A stretch of DNA of 32,598 nt from Betaproteobacteria bacterium (GTDB lineage Bacteria > Pseudomonadota > Gammaproteobacteria > Burkholderiales > Rhodocyclaceae). How positions within the stretch are numbered: position 1 is the stretch's first letter; every line of letters starts with the position of its first letter. The notes below the pieces were generated by a model. It worked only from the letters and a program-made list of their open reading frames with translations, was not told the origin of the DNA and did no database searches. The stretch spans positions 1 to 32,598 of the forward strand of contig VEPA01000192.1 of the NCBI GenBank assembly GCA_012026675.1. The letters are read 5' to 3'. This document shows positions 7,196 through 32,517 of the stretch, one piece after another. Made by a program: the position numbers and the translations under genes.

Positions 7196-8419
7196 CTACT
7201 TCAAGAACCCGGTCAACAACTGATTCAGAAAACGCCGGCCCTGCGCCGTCGGGCGCATCCGGCCATCCACGGTCTCCAGCAGCCCCTCGCGCCGTGCCGC
7301 CAGCACCGCATTTTCGATGGCCGCCAGCGGCAGGCCGGTACGCTCGGTAAATAGCCCGAGCGGGAAGCCGTCGTTGAGGCGCAGGGCATTCATCATGAAT
7401 TCGCCGGGCAGGTCGGCGCGGGCAATGTCTTGGCGGGTGCTGATGAAGTCGCCGCGCGCGGCGCCGGCCAGGTAGGCGCGTGGATTGCGGTGGCGGGCTT
7501 CGCGCCAGATCGTCTCGTGGTTCGACAGCTTGCCGTGCGCGCCGGCGCCGATGCCGAGGTAATCGCCGAAGCTCCAGTAGTTGAGGGTGTGCTGGCAGCG
7601 CGAGTTTATGTCACCTGCAGGTTTGGCGAATGCCGAGGTTTCGTAATGCCCGAAGCCGGCGGCGGCGAGTCTGGCCTCGATCATTTCCTGCATGTCGGCG
7701 GCCAGATCGTCGTCGGGCAGCGGCGGCGGCGCGTGATGAAAGGGCGTGTTCGGTTCCAGGGTCAGGTGGTAGGCGGAAATGTGGCTGACGCCGCTGCTGA
7801 TCGCCGTGGCAATGTCATGTTCGGCTTGCGCCAGGGTCTGCTGCGGCAGCGCGTACATCAGGTCGAGGTTGACCCGCTCGAAATTGCGCAAGCCCATTTC
7901 TATTGCGCGCTGCGCCTCGACGCTGTCGTGGATGCGGCCCAGCGTCGCGAGCTTGGCGTCGGCGAAACTCTGCACGCCGATCGACAGCCGGGTCACGCCG
8001 GCGGCGCGGAAGGCGGCGAACTTTGCCGCCTCGGCGGTGCCGGGATTGGCCTCGAGCGTGATCTCGGCGCCGGGGTGCAGCGGCAGGCGCATGCGGACCG
8101 CGGCCAGCAGCGCATCGACGGTTTCGGCGCGCATCAGGCTGGGCGTGCCGCCGCCGATGAAGACGCTGATCACCGGCCGGTTCCAGATCCGCGGCAGGGC
8201 GGCTTCGAGATCGGCGATCAGCGCGGCGAGATAGGCGGCTTCGGTTTCGGCATCGATCGCGCCACCGCCCTCGTGCGAATTGAAGTCGCAGTAGGGGCAC
8301 TTCTTGACGCACCAGGGCCAATGCACATACAGCGCCAGCGGCGGCGGTGCGGCCAGGCCGGAGGAAGCTGCAAGAGTCGGCGCCGGCGCAACGGCAGCGA
8401 CGGGAATGATCGGTATCAC
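7196..8419 (-). CDS. hemW: HemW-type radical SAM heme chaperone
   Basis: This 407-residue protein belongs to the HemN-like radical SAM family. The [4Fe-4S] motif is C37-x3-C41-x2-C44 (CVKKCPYC), followed by DFNSHE. GGGTPSL near residue 104 is another family motif. HemW inserts heme into target respiratory proteins rather than acting as coproporphyrinogen dehydrogenase, and the CxxxCxxC motif without an extra downstream cysteine fits HemW. The open frame continues to 8596. The GTG at 8419 is preferred because it overlaps the rdgB stop (GTGA) and gives the usual family length. The gene closes a run of five tightly overlapping genes. Confidence 0.93.
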   Translation of the reverse strand: MIPIIPVAAVAPAPTLAASSGLAAPPPLALYVHWPWCVKKCPYCDFNSHEGGGAIDAETEAAYLAALIADLEAALPRIWNRPVISVFIGGGTPSLMRAETVDALLAAVRMRLPLHPGAEITLEANPGTAEAAKFAAFRAAGVTRLSIGVQSFADAKLATLGRIHDSVEAQRAIEMGLRNFERVNLDLMYALPQQTLAQAEHDIATAISSGVSHISAYHLTLEPNTPFHHAPPPLPDDDLAADMQEMIEARLAAAGFGHYETSAFAKPAGDINSRCQHTLNYWSFGDYLGIGAGAHGKLSNHETIWREARHRNPRAYLAGAARGDFISTRQDIARADLPGEFMMNALRLNDGFPLGLFTERTGLPLAAIENAVLAARREGLLETVDGRMRPTAQGRRFLNQLLTGFLK

Positions 8420-9006
8420 GCCCCGGCTCGAAGTCGCGCCAGGAGTTGCGCCAGCGCCTTGCCGCGATGGGACAGACGGTTCTTTTCCTCGTGCGGCAAT
8501 TCGGCCACGGTGAGGCCGGTACCGGGCACCAGGAAGTAGGGGTCGTAGCCGAAACCGCCGGCGCCACGCGGCGCATCGACGATCTCGCCATGCCATTCAC
8601 CTTCGGCGACAATGGGTTGCGGATCGTCGGCGGAACGCATCAGCACCAGCACCGCGACATAGTGCGCGCGGCGATCGGCAACACCGGCCAGATCCGCCAG
8701 CAGCTTCGCGTTGTTCTTCGCGTCCGATTTCGGCTCGCCGCCATAGCGTGCCGACCATACCCCCGGCGCACCGCCCAGGGCGCTGACGCACAGCCCGGAG
8801 TCGTCGGCCAGCGCCGGCATGCCGGTCAGCTGCGCGGCATGGCGCGCTTTGGCGATGGCGTTCTCGACGAAGGTGATGTGCGGTTCCTCGGCTTCCGGCA
8901 CGTTGAAGGCCGACTGCGGCAGTACCTCGAAATCGAAGGGTGCCAGCAGTTGCCCGAATTCGCGCAGCTTGCCGGCGTTGCCGGAAGCGAGAACAAGTTT
9001 CTTCAC
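8416..9006 (-). CDS. rdgB: RdgB/HAM1 non-canonical purine NTP pyrophosphatase
   Basis: This 196-residue enzyme hydrolyses dITP, XTP and ITP to monophosphates, cleansing the nucleotide pool. Family motifs are [10 protein letters not shown] (8-17), [10 protein letters not shown] (46-55), ADDSGL (67-72), GVWSARYGG (82-90) and FGYDPYF near residue 151. Length is typical. The start is GTG and overlaps the rph stop. The rph-rdgB-hemW order is common in proteobacteria. Confidence 0.96.
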
Positions 9007-25991: not shown

Positions 25992-28172
25992 TCAAAAGTC
26001 ATACTTGTAGCGAATGGCGACGAAACTCGCGGATTGCTTGTTATCGACTGACGCCGTAGTGCCGTCTGTTGCGTAGGCCATCGGAATCAGCCCTGTTTTT
26101 GTGTTGTTCCACATCATCCACGACCAGTCATCCGTGTCCCATTTATCATAAACAAAATCCATGCGCACGCTGCTCTTCTTGTCCAGTTGATAGGACGCGT
26201 TGAGAGCCAGCCGGATTGTCTTGTTGGTGATGTTCGGCAAATTCTCCTCCAGGGTAGCGCCGGCATCCTTGATGTTGGACTGACGATATTTGCCCACCGA
26301 CCGGTTCCACTCCAGGTCGGCACCGACTGTGATGTCCGCCGTGGCCTTGCCTTTGACGCCTATGCCAACGGACTCCCCGGTGTCTTCCAGATTGATTTTC
26401 CGGTTCGGACTGGGGCCAAAAGTTGCCTGAAAGGCGTACTGTTTTGCCTTGCTCTCGTCGTAGGAATACCAGGCAGTCAGTTGCCAGTTGTCGTTCAGCT
26501 TGTAATCGGCATCCAGCGAAAACAGCTGTCCGCTGCCGTCCGTGATGCCTGTCCCGCCCAACTTCCGGCCATTCGGGGCCACGTAATTCGCATTCAAGCC
26601 GTTGTCGCCGTAGTCATCCCTCGCCTCGGCATATTGAGCCTGAAGGGAAAGGTTTTCCAGCGGCGACCAGTCGAGCTTCACGCCGACCTTGTCGCGATCC
26701 CGGTCGGCCATGTGCAGGGGGTTGATCAGGTTCATTTGATCAGCCCAATAGAAGTTGCTGCCGTCACGCTCGCTGTGGGCATAGGTCAGCTGACCGTTCA
26801 GCCCTTCGGTCAGGGTCTTCGTGGCCTGGGCCTTGAACGTGAGTTCGTTCGTCTCGGATCGAGCAGGCACTTCCCGTTCATCCGTGGTAACGGTGGGTAT
26901 CGTCCAATTCCCCCCGGCATTGGTGGGGTTTGCCGGCTTGTTGTTTTCGTGATGGAAGACGACCGTGCGCTCCCTGACCTCATAGTAGACCCCGCCCAGC
27001 AGCCTGAAACCCTGATCCACACGATAGTTGGCTTCCAGCTTTGCATTCGTGTTCCTGAAGGAGTGCGGCGTCGTTTCGTCAGGTTCCGCTTGATTGTTGT
27101 ACGGTACATGCGGAGTCTTGTCGTTACGATCCTGATAATTGACATTGGCGAGCAAGGTCAAATCCTTCATCGGCTTGCTTGTAATGCCGAATTGCCCCTC
27201 GGTGGTGACCATTTTCGCCTTGACGCCGTTATAACCGGACCAGACCAGAGCTGCAGGAAGGGCTTTCAGCAGGCTGTAGTCATCCTGGGTGGCCGTGGTC
27301 TGCGCCAGTCGAAATGTGGTTTTGGTGGTGGGGGAAATTGTGTAGGACCCGTTTACGTATAACTGATAGGCCTCGTTGTCGGGGGGCAGGGATAGATAAA
27401 ATGGAGCTCCCGCCCCCACTCTTGCCGTGATGAGATTGTTCTCATTCTCATACCAGCTGCCGTAGTACCCACCCTGGAGCTGCAGGTCCTTGCCAACATA
27501 ATTCAGGACGACATCCAGCTGGCGCGTGCTGCTGTTGATGGGTTCGACAAGGAATACTGCCTGAGCCCCGCTGTAGGTGCCGTAATTGCGCCGGCCATCC
27601 TTGTTTTCGTGACGATACTTGACGCTCAGGTCCAGGGAGCCGTCCAGTACGCCTTCGATGATCTTGTTCAGGCCGAAGGTATAGCGGTCGCGATGCATGC
27701 CCATCCATGCATTTTGCGGCGAGGTACCGGGCCGCGTGTTGACGTTCACCGTCTGGGTTTCGCTCCCGATCCCGCTAAGGCCCGTATTAAAAATCAGCTC
27801 GCTTTCACGCGGAATCCGGCTGTATTCGAAAGACGCGCCGTAATCGCCCTGACGGCTGTGGTTTATCTCGAGTTCCCGATTCTCCAGGCCGAAATTGGTG
27901 ATCCGGAGTTGATTCCAGGTGCCCGTTGCATCGTCACGCTTGTTGATGTCGGCATCGAGCATGAGCTTGACGTCATTGTCGTTCCTGCCGTCAAAGCGGC
28001 CAAGCTGGCGGCGGTCGTTATCCTGGAAGCCGACGCCTACCGATACCGAGCTTTCCGGCGTAATCCACTCCGACAGGTCGGCGCCCTCGGCAAAAGCCGG
28101 ACTGCCATAGACCATCATCAGCGCGGCGCTCAAGGTCGAAATTTTGAAAGCTGTGTTTTTCTGCGATTTCAT
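25992..28172 (-). CDS. MtrB/PioB family decaheme-associated outer-membrane porin
   Basis: This 726-residue protein has a signal peptide (about 1-28, ending AFA) and a large beta-barrel with alternating aromatic strands, ending RYKYDF with a C-terminal phenylalanine. In MtrAB/PioAB/MtoAB systems the barrel encloses a decaheme cytochrome and lets electrons cross the outer membrane. The adjacent upstream decaheme gene gives the classic pair. I find no cysteine in the protein, so it lacks the N-terminal CxxC found in Shewanella MtrB. Base composition looks less GC-rich than flanking housekeeping genes, consistent with transfer. Confidence 0.92.
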   Translation of the reverse strand: MKSQKNTAFKISTLSAALMMVYGSPAFAEGADLSEWITPESSVSVGVGFQDNDRRQLGRFDGRNDNDVKLMLDADINKRDDATGTWNQLRITNFGLENRELEINHSRQGDYGASFEYSRIPRESELIFNTGLSGIGSETQTVNVNTRPGTSPQNAWMGMHRDRYTFGLNKIIEGVLDGSLDLSVKYRHENKDGRRNYGTYSGAQAVFLVEPINSSTRQLDVVLNYVGKDLQLQGGYYGSWYENENNLITARVGAGAPFYLSLPPDNEAYQLYVNGSYTISPTTKTTFRLAQTTATQDDYSLLKALPAALVWSGYNGVKAKMVTTEGQFGITSKPMKDLTLLANVNYQDRNDKTPHVPYNNQAEPDETTPHSFRNTNAKLEANYRVDQGFRLLGGVYYEVRERTVVFHHENNKPANPTNAGGNWTIPTVTTDEREVPARSETNELTFKAQATKTLTEGLNGQLTYAHSERDGSNFYWADQMNLINPLHMADRDRDKVGVKLDWSPLENLSLQAQYAEARDDYGDNGLNANYVAPNGRKLGGTGITDGSGQLFSLDADYKLNDNWQLTAWYSYDESKAKQYAFQATFGPSPNRKINLEDTGESVGIGVKGKATADITVGADLEWNRSVGKYRQSNIKDAGATLEENLPNITNKTIRLALNASYQLDKKSSVRMDFVYDKWDTDDWSWMMWNNTKTGLIPMAYATDGTTASVDNKQSASFVAIRYKYDF

Positions 28173-28193
28173 GATTGCATTCCTTGGGCAAGA

Positions 28194-29195
28194 TCAGCGG
28201 GTTAGACGATCGCCGGAAGTTCCAGTGTTGGCCGGGTTGTTGCTGCCATGGATATTGGTGTGGCAGTTCACACAACCGCGACCCACTGCCGCCATCACTC
28301 CACGCCCGCCGGGGCCAACGCCTGCAGCATTTGTCGCCACCGGCAAGCCGCCGGGCGAAGAACTGCTGGGGTGCTGGGCGCCTTCATGACACTCCTGGCA
28401 CAGGAAGGGCGGGCGGCTCTTCAACAAGTTGGCTACCGTCGTGCCGTGGGGGTTGTGGCAGATGCCGCAATCCTCGGATACCGGCTGATGGTTGTTGAGG
28501 AAGGGACCACGCTTTTCCATGTGGCAGGTGTAGCAAGTCTCATTGACGGTTCCCCGGGTAAGCTGCTTCTGGCCGGGCGATCCGTGCGGGCTGTGGCAAT
28601 CGGAACAGCTCATCTTGCCTTCGCGCACCGGATGGCGGCTGGGCTTGCTCATCTCGGCGCGCTGCTGCTTGTGGCAGGTGTAGCAGACCTCTGCTTGCGT
28701 CCTCTTGTCGCGCACTTTGTCGCCGCCTTTATGGACCTGGTGGCAGTCTGAACAAGCCACATCGTTCGCCGAATGGGTGCTGGTCGCCCAGAACATGTGG
28801 GTGCCGCCCTTGTGGCATGTAGTGCAGGCCTCGTTCCTTACCTCAGCCGAACTCCGCCCCGGCCCCTTGGCAAAAGAGCGATCCACCTTCGGCGGCTTGT
28901 CGCTGCCCTTGTGATTGACGTGCTTTTCGCTCTCGCCGTGGCAACTGGTGCATTCCGGAGTGCGCTTGTCGGCGCGGGTGCCATGCTTGGTCTTGCCAAT
29001 GGCCAGCAGTTCCGGGCTGTCCGCCTCGTCGTGACAGGTCGTGCATTTCGCGTCGTTCTTAAGGACGATATCCTTGGCGGCCTCTTTTTTGGCCATCGCC
29101 GGCTTGGGCGCTTCGGCGGCTGCCTGCGCCGAGGTCGCAACGACCAGTGTGCCCATGACAAACATCACGGGCAGAATTTTCTTCAAAAATCGCAT
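28194..29195 (-). CDS. DmsE/MtrA-type decaheme cytochrome c
   Basis: This 333-residue periplasmic cytochrome has a signal peptide (about 1-26) and exactly ten CxxCH heme sites: CTTCH, CTSCH, CTTCH, CSDCH, CYTCH, CSDCH, CYTCH, CGICH, CQECH and CVNCH. Length and heme count match MtrA/DmsE. It should sit inside the porin barrel and pass electrons between periplasm and cell exterior. The open frame reaches 29219; the ATG at 29195 is chosen because AGGGGAC lies about seven bases upstream and a signal peptide follows. It precedes the porin by 21 bases. Direction of electron flow cannot be deduced. Confidence 0.95.
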   Translation of the reverse strand: MRFLKKILPVMFVMGTLVVATSAQAAAEAPKPAMAKKEAAKDIVLKNDAKCTTCHDEADSPELLAIGKTKHGTRADKRTPECTSCHGESEKHVNHKGSDKPPKVDRSFAKGPGRSSAEVRNEACTTCHKGGTHMFWATSTHSANDVACSDCHQVHKGGDKVRDKRTQAEVCYTCHKQQRAEMSKPSRHPVREGKMSCSDCHSPHGSPGQKQLTRGTVNETCYTCHMEKRGPFLNNHQPVSEDCGICHNPHGTTVANLLKSRPPFLCQECHEGAQHPSSSSPGGLPVATNAAGVGPGGRGVMAAVGRGCVNCHTNIHGSNNPANTGTSGDRLTR

Positions 29196-29728
29196 CGGAG
29201 TCCCCTTTGGCCAATTCATTTGGAGCTTGAATCACGCAGCATCTGCGCTTCGCAGCCTCGCTGGTTGTCGCGAGAAAGCCCCTAATAAGGCGTGGAGTAT
29301 CCATCACCGTAATTCTTCAGTGAAGCCCCCCTTTAAATTGACCTGCAATAAGATATTTACAAATACTTACAAAATGCATCAGAATGCGCAGACAAGCTAA
29401 AGTGGGCCTGCACTGATACAGCCGATCCATTGTTGATCGTGCCCCGCCACAAACCCAGATTCGTTCTTAAGATTGCCTGTTACTGATATGTAAATACACT
29501 GCTATTACTTTCATATTCTTGACTCAGCAATATTTGCACGCTCATGCAAGCGTATCGCCGGGTAAGCTTGACAAAATTGCTCGGTATTGACGCAGTTCGC
29601 AAATGTAAATTATTGAAAGTTGTTTCTCTGCAACGTGGCATTTTTCTCCCTTGTTCGAGCGGCTACCGGTGCAACCACAAGGCCGGAATCTTGGCCTCGT
29701 GCGTAATTAGCTTCGGCGGAATGCATTG
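29196..29728. other. AT-rich divergent intergenic region
   Basis: This 533-base gap separates the decaheme gene (-) from the OmpR-type regulator (+) and is visibly richer in A and T than its surroundings. It contains two TTACAAA repeats one helical turn apart (29357 and 29367), and TTGCA-N6-TGCAA (29534-29549). A possible plus-strand promoter is TTACTG-N17-TATTAC (about 29479-29507). A 61-codon open frame ending at 29729 has no supporting features. It probably holds the regulatory sequences for both genes. Confidence 0.5.
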
Positions 29729-30424
29729 ATGGAACAGAAACCCCTTGTATTGCTGGCGGCGCACGACGTCGTTCGCTGCGAAGTCCTGTCGAAGTACCTT
29801 GCGGCACAAGGCTTCGAAGCGGCTGCCTGCCATGACGGCGAGGCGGTCCTTCAGCTCGCGACCGAGGGTAGCTACGATATCGTCCTGCTCGACGACGCGC
29901 TCCCCGGCATTACCGGGATCGAGGTACTGCGGCACATACGCCGCCACGGCGAGCTGCCAGTCGTCATGCTCTCGGCTACAGCCGATGCGGTCGAACGCAT
30001 CGTCGCCCTCGAACTCGGCGCCGACGACTATCTGGCGACGTCCTGCAACCTGCGCGAACTGGTGGCGCGACTGAACGCCATCCTGCGCCGGACAAGGCAT
30101 GCCAATGTCGCTGAAAAGACCCGCCGCGGCGGCCAGGACAGCCTGAGTCTTTCGCCGGCGGAGCGAAGCGCCCGCTGGCGTGGCAAACCGCTGCCGCTGA
30201 CCAGCACGGAATTCGACCTGCTCGAACTCCTCTTCAACCACTCAGGCCGCACGCTGGACAAAAACCACCTGGCGCTCACGGTGCTCGGCCGCGAGTTGAA
30301 GCAGTTTGATCGCAGCCTCGACATGCACATCAGCAATCTGCGCAAAAAACTCGGCAGGCTGCCCGATGGCCGCTCGCCGATACAAACGGTACACGGTTCA
30401 GGCTATCAGTTGCTGCGCAAATAA
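29729..30424 (+). CDS. OmpR-type response regulator with degenerate receiver
   Basis: This 231-residue protein has an N-terminal receiver (about 1-120) and a C-terminal OmpR/PhoB winged helix, with LTSTEFDLLELLFNHSGRTL near 155 and DMHISNLRKKLG near 195. The receiver keeps D55 as phosphoacceptor and a serine in MLSA. However, the acidic pocket reads AAHD (10-13) in place of xEDD, and the conserved lysine is lost: DDYLATSC instead of DDYLAKPF. Phosphorylation or its coupling to activation is probably altered. No histidine kinase is adjacent. Being divergent from the decaheme-porin operon, it is the obvious candidate regulator, inferred. Confidence 0.9.
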   Translation: MEQKPLVLLAAHDVVRCEVLSKYLAAQGFEAAACHDGEAVLQLATEGSYDIVLLDDALPGITGIEVLRHIRRHGELPVVMLSATADAVERIVALELGADDYLATSCNLRELVARLNAILRRTRHANVAEKTRRGGQDSLSLSPAERSARWRGKPLPLTSTEFDLLELLFNHSGRTLDKNHLALTVLGRELKQFDRSLDMHISNLRKKLGRLPDGRSPIQTVHGSGYQLLRK

Positions 30425-30804: not shown

Positions 30805-31094
30805 CAAACCCCTTCGCTGGAGACCGAAAACACGCTGCTTGTCCCGTCGCTGCCGCACGCGGCAGGCGACGCATTAACGGCTACTTCCGACCGGGCGACA
30901 CGCGTTACCGACGCTCGGTGATGCACGCGGCCTTGAGCGCAGCGGCAGTCAAAAGGGTGCATACAAAACCTATACGCACCTTGAATGGATATCTTGCTGA
31001 TTGTTCTAAACATTAATAGACGAAACGGGATTGCGCTGCATATTCTGCATGTACTTCGACCCGCTCGGTGAAAGTCCGGCGGACAGGCGACTGA

Positions 31095-31113
31095 TTGCGA
31101 TCAAGCATCGCAA
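31095..31113. promoter_or_regulatory. Palindromic candidate enhancer site
   Basis: TTGCGAT (31095-31101), CAAGC and ATCGCAA (31107-31113) form a perfect 7-bp inverted repeat. It lies about 75 bases upstream of the predicted sigma-54 start site, where enhancer-binding proteins commonly bind. The rest of the gap 30859-31152 shows no gene. Confidence 0.5.
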
Positions 31114-31152
31114 ACAATTGAAAATCATGTGAATAATCTTTCCAACCGAATG

Positions 31153-31169
31153 TTGGCACAAGCATTGCT
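31153..31169 (+). promoter_or_regulatory. Sigma-54 promoter of the receiver gene pair
   Basis: TTGGCACAAGCATTGCT matches the -24/-12 consensus (TTGGCAC-N5-TTGCW), with ten bases between the GG and GC elements. Transcription would start near 31180, and a GAGGTGGG ribosome binding site lies just before the ATG at 31210. Sigma-54 promoters need an ATP-dependent activator, not visible in the window. Confidence 0.75.
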
Positions 31170-31209: not shown

Positions 31210-31638
31210 ATGAATGCAAAAGCCAAAGTTCTGGTCGTCGATGATGAAGAGGTCGTAAGACGTGCCTACATCAGAACGCTATCGGGCGAGAGTTGCAGTG
31301 TCGAAGAGGCCTGGAACGGCAGCGAAGCACTGCTGGCGATGGAAAAGCAGCCGTTCGACCTCGTCCTGCTCGATCAGCGCATGCCCGGAATCGACGGCAT
31401 GGCGGTGCTCAAGACCATCAAGGAAAACTGGCCCGAGAGCGAAGTGATCATGATCACCGGTTACCCGGCGATCGAGGCCGCAAAGCAGGCCGTGGCGCTG
31501 GGCGCCAATGACTACCTGGCAAAGCCGGTAGGACCCGACGAGGTCATCAACGCCGCAAACGCTGCCGTAATGCACAAGAAGTGGGCATTGCACGGCGACC
31601 GGAAAGACGGAATCAATCTGGGACGATCTGCCGCTTGA
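31210..31638 (+). CDS. Single-domain response regulator (receiver only)
   Basis: This 142-residue protein is a stand-alone receiver. Conserved residues are present: VVDDE acidic pocket, phosphoacceptor aspartate in LVLLDQRMPG, threonine in MITGY and lysine in LAKPV. There is no output domain; a 25-residue tail follows the receiver. The open frame begins at 31129, but that start overlaps the sigma-54 promoter, so the ATG at 31210 with GAGGTGGG is used. It is followed after 33 bases by a second receiver gene, so a phosphorelay or shared kinase is likely. Confidence 0.9.
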   Translation: MNAKAKVLVVDDEEVVRRAYIRTLSGESCSVEEAWNGSEALLAMEKQPFDLVLLDQRMPGIDGMAVLKTIKENWPESEVIMITGYPAIEAAKQAVALGANDYLAKPVGPDEVINAANAAVMHKKWALHGDRKDGINLGRSAA

Positions 31639-31671: not shown

Positions 31672-32517
31672 ATGAGCGCATTACTTCACAAAGTGTTGGT
31701 CGTAGATGACGACCCGGTGGTTGGAAAGAGTTTCAACCGTGTTCTTTCGCAAAAGGGCTATGTGGTGATAACCGCCGCCAACGCCCAGGAAGCGCTGAGC
31801 AAGGTGCAGGAAGGCGAGTACGACGTCGTCTTCACGGACATCAAGATGCCCGGCATGAACGGCATCGAACTGACCGCGCGCCTCCGGATCGAGCGCCCCT
31901 GGACACCTGTGGTGATCGTGACTGGGTACGGCTCCAAGGCCCATCAGGATCAGGCCGCGGCCGCAGGCGTGTCGTCCTTTCTGCAAAAGCCCCTGTCGCC
32001 GGAAATGATCGAGGAAAGCCTAACCAAGGCCTTGCTCGAGTCCGTTCCAGCGGTTCTTCCGGGCCTCGAGGAAGCTGCCGCGCCGGACGCCGTCGAACAC
32101 GAAAGTTCGCTGAAGAAAATCGGCCTTTTCATGGCGGCGCCCTTCGTCGGCCTGGCCTACGCCGTGGCACTGCCTTTCGCCGGGCTGGGTGCGCTGGCCT
32201 ACGTGGGAATCAGGGCGTTTGCGAAGTCTTCGGCGCCCGCAAGGCTGCTGGCCTTCGCCAAGAATGCCGCGCTGTTCTTTGCCGCGCCCTTCCTCGGACT
32301 GGCCTACGCACTCCTGCTTCCGGTCGTCGGTACCGGAGCCCTGGCCTGGATGGGAATCAAGGCATTGCGGCGCAACGCAGCAGTGATGAGAGTAGTCTCG
32401 TTCATCGGCGCACCCTTCGTCGGCCTGGCCTTCATACTCGCCCTCCCGTTCGCAGGCTCGGCAGCGATGGTCTGGATCGCGGTGCGCGCAGTGATCGGGA
32501 AAGTTCGAACCGGCTGA
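31672..32517 (+). CDS. Receiver domain fused to three hydrophobic repeats
   Basis: This 281-residue protein has a canonical receiver (about 7-120: VVDDD, phosphoacceptor in VFTDIKMPG, threonine in IVTGYG, lysine in LQKPLS). A linker (about 121-147) leads to three related hydrophobic units beginning APFVGLAY (near 156), APFLGLAY (near 206) and APFVGLAF (near 248). Each continues with a proline-glycine-containing turn (LPFAG, LPVVG, LPFAG) and a second hydrophobic stretch, then a basic segment. The units look like membrane hairpins. No DNA-binding or enzymatic output is present. AAGGAG precedes the ATG. It appears to be a membrane-associated phosphoreceiver of unknown output; I know no named family for it. 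Confidence 0.85.
   Translation: MSALLHKVLVVDDDPVVGKSFNRVLSQKGYVVITAANAQEALSKVQEGEYDVVFTDIKMPGMNGIELTARLRIERPWTPVVIVTGYGSKAHQDQAAAAGVSSFLQKPLSPEMIEESLTKALLESVPAVLPGLEEAAAPDAVEHESSLKKIGLFMAAPFVGLAYAVALPFAGLGALAYVGIRAFAKSSAPARLLAFAKNAALFFAAPFLGLAYALLLPVVGTGALAWMGIKALRRNAAVMRVVSFIGAPFVGLAFILALPFAGSAAMVWIAVRAVIGKVRTG

Follow-up and report, generated by a model that had tools for sequence, protein, structure and literature searches.

A betaproteobacterial response regulator whose C-terminal module is a hydrophobic repeat, with a shared sigma-54 promoter signature near cytochrome genes

We describe the computational analysis of a gene close to one end of a 32,598-nucleotide stretch of DNA (hereafter the window, meaning the whole stretch that was analysed) from a betaproteobacterium of the Rhodocyclaceae. 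The open reading frame at 31672..32517 of the forward strand starts with ATG, has an AAGGAG just 5′ of it, and encodes a protein of 281 residues in which a receiver domain (REC) is followed by three hydrophobic units, as judged by Pfam and by an HMM of the units (built from the unit family, with the window protein among its sequences). The first-pass annotation had read the N-terminal part as a fully canonical phosphoreceiver, and this is borne out: Response_reg (PF00072) covers residues 8–116 (31693..32019, forward strand) with an E-value of 5.7e-30 and 104.2 bits against a curated cut-off of 30.2, and the active site is complete (D12/D13, D56, T84, and K106). A linker of about 25–30 residues leads to the first of the units, which occupy residues 148–185 (unit 1; 32113..32226; E 2e-17), 197–233 (unit 2; 32260..32370; E 1.5e-19), and 241–274 (unit 3; 32392..32493; E 6.6e-13), all on the forward strand. 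The units are about 38 residues long, and their APF motifs, with onsets at residues 156, 205, and 247, are spaced by 49 and 42 residues. Identity between the unit pairs amounts to 22, 17, and 14 of 38 residues, levels that none of 20,000 shuffles matched for any pair, and the Kyte-Doolittle mean over 19 residues exceeds 1.6 in each unit, which is above the usual membrane threshold. Both inter-unit linkers hold basic residues and no acidic ones. By spacing, shuffling, and the HMM, which finds all three copies, the triple hydrophobic repeat noticed earlier is confirmed, as are the basic stretches between the copies; the suspected internal duplication also gains support, because unit number varies between one, two, and three among relatives of the protein.

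Immediately upstream lies the gene of a CheY-like single receiver protein (31210..31638, forward strand), the first gene of the operon; its reading frame was listed from 31129, and the start at 31210 is preferred because the promoter sits at 31154. That promoter, TGGCACAAGCATTGC (31154..31168, forward strand), is the only sigma-54 site in the window with zero mismatches, sites with up to two mismatches occurring there at the chance level (47 against 47.24 expected). A putative enhancer for an NtrC-type regulator, GCATATTCTGCATGTAC (31038..31054, forward strand), is found 116 bp 5′ of the sigma-54 site with two mismatches to the repeat GTACA-N7-TGTAC; its weight comes from its position and from the composite of the two elements, because on its own the repeat turns up in the window no more often than expected by chance (3 matches against 3.61). 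Further upstream is an OmpR-type regulator (29726..30424, forward strand; PF00072), which is also present upstream in a same-genus relative (L037) and whose membership of the REC-unit system is uncertain. In the alignment its receiver appears to be without the acidic pair and the conserved Lys, and the protein is possibly phosphorylation-independent. At 25992..29219 on the reverse strand, about 2 kb from the operon, the gene of an MtrB/PioB-type outer-membrane barrel stands beside that of a DmsE-family decaheme cytochrome, both scoring above the NCBIfam cut-offs, and the pair probably forms an extracellular electron-transfer conduit. MtrA/MtrB-like genes were considered as a part of the system and rejected: since only the window and L067 have them among the 101 sequences scanned, they are treated as mere neighbours.

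Of 199 genomes from its taxonomic family, the genome of the window included, 11 proved to hold units in a search with the C-terminus, with up to five unit matches per genome. The unit profile matched in 3 of 300 genomes of the order and 1 of 274 of the class (own genome counted in both). Among named genomes, a scan with a two-unit profile returned 118 relatives, of which 80 were fetched; it used one ten-residue peptide pattern and was not exhaustive, so that relatives without the pattern are missed and that stretch looks over-conserved. Among those listed, the titles are of metagenome-assembled genomes, labelled mostly as Betaproteobacteria or as members of that group (Sterolibacterium, Rhodoferax, Polaromonas, Burkholderiales, and Rhodocyclaceae), together with a few labelled only as Proteobacteria, two Gammaproteobacteria, and one Steroidobacteraceae; for many of them the isolate names hint at lakes and groundwater. 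The fetched loci comprise 52 that encode REC plus units and 28 that encode two-unit proteins without a visible REC (one of the latter, L077, is truncated 5′ and may or may not have had a REC, and L058, L059, L093, and L099 are also 5′-cut but resemble full-length receiver-less proteins). One unit is present in 4 of the 52 REC proteins, two in 38, and three in 10, as counted after removal of weak extra first units from L078 and L096. The REC active-site residues (the acidic pair, the acceptor Asp, the Thr, and the Lys) are invariant in 46 of 46 proteins—that is, the window protein and 45 others, the remaining seven REC proteins of the 80 loci being 5′-cut and left out—which argues that phosphorylation matters. 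The exception is the divergent relative L019 (genome G071, contig C85), which stands outside the set of 46 and is a pseudo-receiver with the acceptor Asp replaced by Ala; its contig also carries a nine-heme cytochrome.

The history of the units can be followed in part. When two-unit proteins are compared with one another, the closest counterpart of a unit has the matching position for 123 of 128 units, and the duplication therefore looks old. In the unit tree, the nearest relative of unit 3 of the window protein is unit 2 of L080, a protein from the same genus; a middle unit may have been added in the window protein, or one may have been lost from L080. Among unit-only proteins, a receiver remnant around the fourth strand is clear in L065 (0 of 200 shuffles, z 9.1) and weak in L081 (1 of 200 shuffles). 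The other 26 of 28 have none (at least 10 of 200 shuffles), which gives no support to a general origin of the unit-only proteins by loss of REC. At G116:C1:617152-618630, a unit-only gene lies directly 5′ of a gene for REC plus one unit (L021 and L029), which shows that the two kinds can be neighbours.

As the first-pass annotation had called for, the C-terminal region was searched with profiles, and no consistent soluble or enzymatic family was found in Pfam, NCBIfam, or the PDB. With the C-terminus of the window protein, Pfam gave one match at 11.9 bits against a cut-off of 24.4, NCBIfam gave none, and the PDB sequences gave three GPCR entries at E 0.1–0.18; the unit profile matched nothing in the PDB sequences at E≤1. 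A search with 56 related unit segments at E≤0.1 gave matches to 22 Pfam and 10 NCBIfam families, none of them in more than 6 segments and some in just 1; the best Pfam E-value was 0.00036 (in 3 of 56 segments, from output without cut-offs), and all these matches were judged to be chance. The plasmid and phage sequences searched held no unit match. A fold search with the model of a unit-only protein returned two matches, the best at E 4.8, and nothing convincing; with the full-length model, the 50 matches listed of 1747 were all receivers. In the literature searched, seen in part and mostly outside subscription journals, no description of the unit family or its regulon was recognised.

The window contig stops 81 bases 3′ of the REC-unit gene, the assembly consisting of 267 contigs, and a longer gene order is available from the same-genus locus L037: OmpR-type regulator, CheY-like REC, REC-unit protein, nine-heme cytochrome c, and cytochrome b561, followed on the opposite strand by an NtrC-type sigma-54 regulator and a HAMP histidine kinase. 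The cytochrome c has nine CXXCH motifs and a C-terminal hydrophobic stretch, the b561 gene (PF01292) adjoins, and to judge from these features the two probably form a quinol-to-cytochrome complex. Contig C254 of the window's own genome starts inside the matching cytochrome (74% identity to the relative) and continues with b561 (85%), a convergent NtrC-type regulator, the kinase, and a cytochrome-b561 fusion, the order being as in L037; there being no overlap between the contigs, synteny is the basis for placing them side by side. The fusion gene, beyond the kinase gene (L145:5558-7597, reverse strand), encodes a 680-residue protein in which an eight-CXXCH cytochrome is joined to a cytochrome b561 domain, an architecture that resembles CbcL.

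This arrangement recurs in part of the family. The CheY-like gene is immediately 5′ of the REC-unit gene in 24 of the 42 loci that extend far enough to tell. The nine-heme cytochrome follows directly, on the strand of the REC-unit gene, in 21 of the 52 REC loci and is present anywhere in the fetched flank in 26, the other 26 having no such cytochrome there, and it occurs in the flank of 2 of the 28 unit-only genes (the 5′-cut L120 and L123 being reassigned to the REC class for these counts). At the level of genomes, the cytochrome (E≤1e-40) is found in 10 of 199 family genomes, all within the 11 unit-positive ones when kinship is ignored, with G050 as the only unit-positive genome without it at this cut-off; the distribution is nevertheless patchy inside the genus, where two of the six genomes searched (G000 and G181) have both units and cytochrome, and the other four have neither. 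Some cytochrome-less REC-unit loci lie near a FIST-domain gene (L083, L096, L107, L114, and L118) or a PCu(A)C copper-chaperone gene (L083, L105, L107, and L118), both assigned by sequence cluster with one member of each domain-scanned. Downstream of the REC-unit gene in L110, a gene at 7352-8467 (forward strand) encodes a receiver fused to a glycine-cleavage H-protein (lipoyl) domain, and the same sequence cluster is present in L076 and L115 (the domain scan covering L110 alone).

Sigma-54 sites, called where at least 9 of 10 consensus bases agree in sequences that are related and not independent, precede the CheY-like gene in 18 of 25 loci, whereas only 28 of 1000 440-bp pieces drawn at random from these loci contain one. 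The window, with a score of 6, is among the misses here because the start codon used for it was too far upstream, although its exact site exists. Unit-only genes are preceded by such a site in 22 of 23 cases. An own site was found for one of 25 cytochrome entries (two loci being entered twice, as L037/L080 and L043/L130), which fits co-transcription with the REC-unit operon; the REC-unit gene and the cytochrome gene would then share a transcript. When short palindromes were counted with no preset pattern, GTACA-N7-TGTAC came top in both promoter sets, with exact copies in 4 of 18 CheY-operon promoters and 5 of 22 unit-only promoters. With up to two mismatches, 35 of 51 promoters have the repeat 102–129 bp upstream of their sigma-54 site, a distance range that was picked after viewing and a set of non-independent promoters from which those without a sigma-54 site were excluded; these 35 divide into 12 of 18 CheY operons (the 18 being the window and 17 hand-listed of the 24 loci), 8 of 11 other REC genes, and 15 of 22 unit-only genes, and 16 of the 51 have no repeat at the usual distance. 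Occurring anywhere, the repeat was found in 183 of 3060 random 250-bp pieces of the same loci and in 249 of 2550 shuffled upstream regions. It may be the binding site of the NtrC-type activator.

Across the 199 family genomes, a strict composite of repeat and sigma-54 site occurs at 13 places in 7 genomes, all of them unit-positive, and at none in the 188 unit-less genomes or with the reversed control; because the pattern was built from unit-family promoters, its absence elsewhere is the actual test. Eleven of the 13 composites stand just 5′ of unit-family genes or precede the CheY-like gene, and the other two, at contig starts in G017, run into unit-only N-termini cut by the contig end, so that all 13 precede unit-family genes or their operon. 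The genome of the window (G000) holds a single match, at 31038-31168. The exact composite is missing from 4 of the 11 unit-positive genomes (G006, G071, G181, and G183), in which either the strict pattern misses sites or the genes are without them. Two unit-only genes of G017 (L160 and L161, on contigs C51 and C56) are identical over the first 135 bases from the sigma-54 site, and each is interrupted by the end of its contig, which suggests that they duplicated recently and thereby disrupted the assembly.

The units themselves are strongly patterned. Anchored on the first Pro, 168 of 169 family units align without gaps (one was unplaceable), with the consensus K-N-V-A-L-F-L-A-A-P-F-I-G-L-A-Y-A-V-A-L-P-F-V-G-L-A-M-L-A-W-x-G-x-K, in which the positions from the Y to the second Pro are variable. 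The first Pro is universal (168 of 168) because the alignment was built on it, and the anchor also constrained positions +1 to +4 in part; the second Pro, at +11, is likewise present in 168 of 168, which the anchor did not demand (the unit-finding HMM may favour it), and a Gly stands at +14 in 156 of 168. The uncharged core measures 31–32 residues in 113 of 169 units. Inter-unit linkers are net positive in 88 of 88 cases (with means of 3.9 Lys+Arg and 0.5 Asp+Glu), and so are the C-terminal tails of 4 of 4 one-unit, 56 of 66 two-unit, and 9 of 11 three-unit proteins. Under the positive-inside rule, positive charge marks the cytoplasmic side, and a caveolin- or oleosin-like re-entrant hairpin is a hydrophobic segment with both ends in the cytoplasm. 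Since the linkers are net positive, the charge pattern of linkers and tails favours re-entrant hairpins, in which both ends of each unit would be cytoplasmic. AlphaFold2 places each unit within one long continuous helix and not in a hairpin, both for the window protein (pLDDT 83, pTM 0.50; helices 146–185, 189–234, and 247–280) and for the unit-only protein L112 (pLDDT 79, pTM 0.45; helices 4–57 and 60–116). Because the predicted helices are continuous while all linkers are positive, the units may be either hairpins or crossings. A single conserved packing face was considered and rejected, as the 100-degree periodicity of conservation is absent (3250 of 5000 shuffles reach the observed power). 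The units would be inserted in the inner membrane, and action of the REC-unit protein at the membrane would fit its sequence and the neighbouring cytochrome c and b561 genes. The first-pass interpretation is thus supported in part: the altered insertion, oligomerisation, or bilayer shape that it proposed is conjecture, and it had not noticed the receiver-less sister proteins, the sigma-54 regulon, the redox locus, or the kinase with heme motifs.

The kinase of the locus offers a hint of the input. In the region before HAMP, all 16 kinases of cytochrome-holding loci carry CX4CH, and 13 of them also carry CXXCH; among 5 kinases that belong to this cluster but come from cytochrome-less loci, 2 have CXXCH. 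The kinase of the window's own genome has both motifs. Its sensor region matches neither sCache nor Tll0287; in relatives, matches below the cut-off were seen to sCache in two and to Tll0287 in one. Heme-bearing Cache sensors with NO-sensor or redox properties have been described in a 2026 preprint (PMC12889525, partial text), and because the locus kinase also bears heme motifs, redox state or NO is a plausible signal. As far as the available part of that source goes, its sCache_heme sensors are alike in combining a kinase sensor with CXXCH, and they differ in that the locus kinase adds a CX4CH and has sCache and Tll0287 scores that are below the cut-off or absent. The shared locus suggests that this kinase would be the partner of the REC.

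The reading that we prefer, and to which we give an even chance of being correct, is that of a membrane-inserted response regulator with a dedicated sigma-54 regulon that acts post-translationally at the inner membrane near the probable cytochrome complex and the receiver-less sister proteins. The kinase with its c-heme motifs would sense the state of the electron-transfer chain and phosphorylate the NtrC-type activator, which would switch on the dedicated regulon; the products would be the CheY-like REC, the REC-unit protein, the nine-heme cytochrome c, and cytochrome b561, and scattered genes of the regulon would supply the receiver-less two-unit proteins. The units would anchor the REC in the inner membrane, where it would be phosphorylated by the same kinase, and phospho-REC would alter the packing of the units with sister proteins, with the cytochrome complex as a candidate target, or with both. 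One kinase would thereby have two actions, one through transcription and one directly at the membrane. Since receiver-less paralogues have the same promoter type, the units presumably have a function of their own. A bolder version, which we consider quite improbable, holds that REC-headed and receiver-less unit proteins together would form a phospho-switchable scaffold that reshapes or organises the inner membrane around a quinol-to-multiheme-cytochrome complex; with the heme-motif kinase and the dedicated activator calling up these proteins on demand, phosphorylation would govern the architecture of the membrane directly.

The main rival is a phosphate sink, in which the units would serve to park the REC by the kinase, and the REC and the CheY-like protein would drain phosphate with no output at the membrane. 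With three complete receivers (CheY-like, REC-unit, and NtrC-type) for one kinase, negative feedback on the NtrC-type activator is conceivable, and the CheY-like and REC-unit genes sit in an operon that the NtrC-type protein probably controls, as such feedback needs. A sink would, however, leave the receiver-less two-unit proteins with the same promoter type unexplained (that sigma-54 site again being present in 22 of 23), and the motifs that are invariant within the units would be superfluous in a mere anchor; we regard it as unlikely. Slightly less probable is a system whose primary business is the membrane itself, in which unit proteins would assemble and bend or partition the inner membrane, for instance into intracytoplasmic membranes with a larger respiratory area, with the REC on some of them controlling assembly. 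Repeated hydrophobic units, numbering 1 to 3 per protein and with up to five matches per genome, would suit such a role, and Geobacter forms intracytoplasmic membranes under thermodynamically limiting conditions by a folding mechanism left unexplained in the available part of the source (PMC10082016); a structural match for the unit model was nevertheless not found by the fold search. A little less likely again is that the units simply form a regular transmembrane subunit of the cytochrome c/b561 complex or help to assemble it, with the REC as an accessory: the adjoining cytochrome and b561 genes and the long AlphaFold helices would agree with this, but all five REC active-site residues are invariant, unit-only genes are mostly away from a cytochrome (2 of 28 with one in the flank), and all-positive linkers fit alternating crossings poorly. 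An artefact (misassembly, a non-gene, or a soluble helical domain) is hardly credible, for although the assembly is fragmented into its 267 contigs and the window ends 81 bases past the gene, REC plus units recur in 52 of 80 fetched loci from many assemblies, and the hydrophobicity exceeds the usual membrane threshold.

Response regulators usually act via DNA-binding, enzymatic, or soluble binding outputs. Regulators that act on membrane proteins are known already, and a sigma-54 regulon of a scattered gene family has a precedent. For example, EpsW (PMC12802240) and PorX (PMC5005315) are response regulators that, in the available parts of these sources, bind membrane proteins and not DNA; EpsW is single-domain, and PorX is CheY-like and docks on its target. 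Unlike these, the membrane-inserted regulator preferred here would bring its own hydrophobic segments. Another case is archaeal MetOD3, in which a REC is fused to an uncharacterised membrane-anchored region, and the MetODs of its group are described from one or two methanogen genera (PMC5847659, partial text); by that description, the present family differs in having a repeated bacterial unit that also occurs without REC and goes with one promoter type. The PEP-CTERM/PrsK-PrsR system is alike in that scattered genes of one family share an activator and sigma-54 sites, and in its membrane kinase and NtrC-type regulator (PMC1569441, partial text). It differs, according to the same partial text, in the protein family, in an upstream motif with TTTACA against GTACA-N7-TGTAC in the unit family, and in a motif-to-sigma-54 gap of 32–92 bases against 85–112 (PMC1569441). 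Membership of the Prs regulon was rejected because the locus activator scores 403.3 bits, below the 502.6 cut-off of the PrsR model TIGR02915, and PEP-CTERM targets were rejected as well, no PEP-CTERM model being among the families at E≤0.1 for the 56 unit segments. As for the cytochromes, CbcBA is made up of a multiheme c-type and a b-type cytochrome, and we know of no counterpart of the REC-unit protein in Geobacter. At the level of make-up, the cytochrome pair resembles Geobacter CbcL, a bc-type inner-membrane cytochrome (PMC12307469, partial text).

What is new is a response regulator in which a hydrophobic repeat takes the place of the usual output and which has its own promoter signature, undescribed in the libraries and literature searched. 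Its output module is a repeated hydrophobic unit that also exists without a REC and stands beside a probable electron-transfer complex, and the system can serve to test whether phosphorylation acts directly on the assembly of membrane proteins. The promoter signature, with 13 places in 199 genomes, is specific enough to find more members. If the preferred reading is true, the system would show how such betaproteobacteria control respiratory electron flow.
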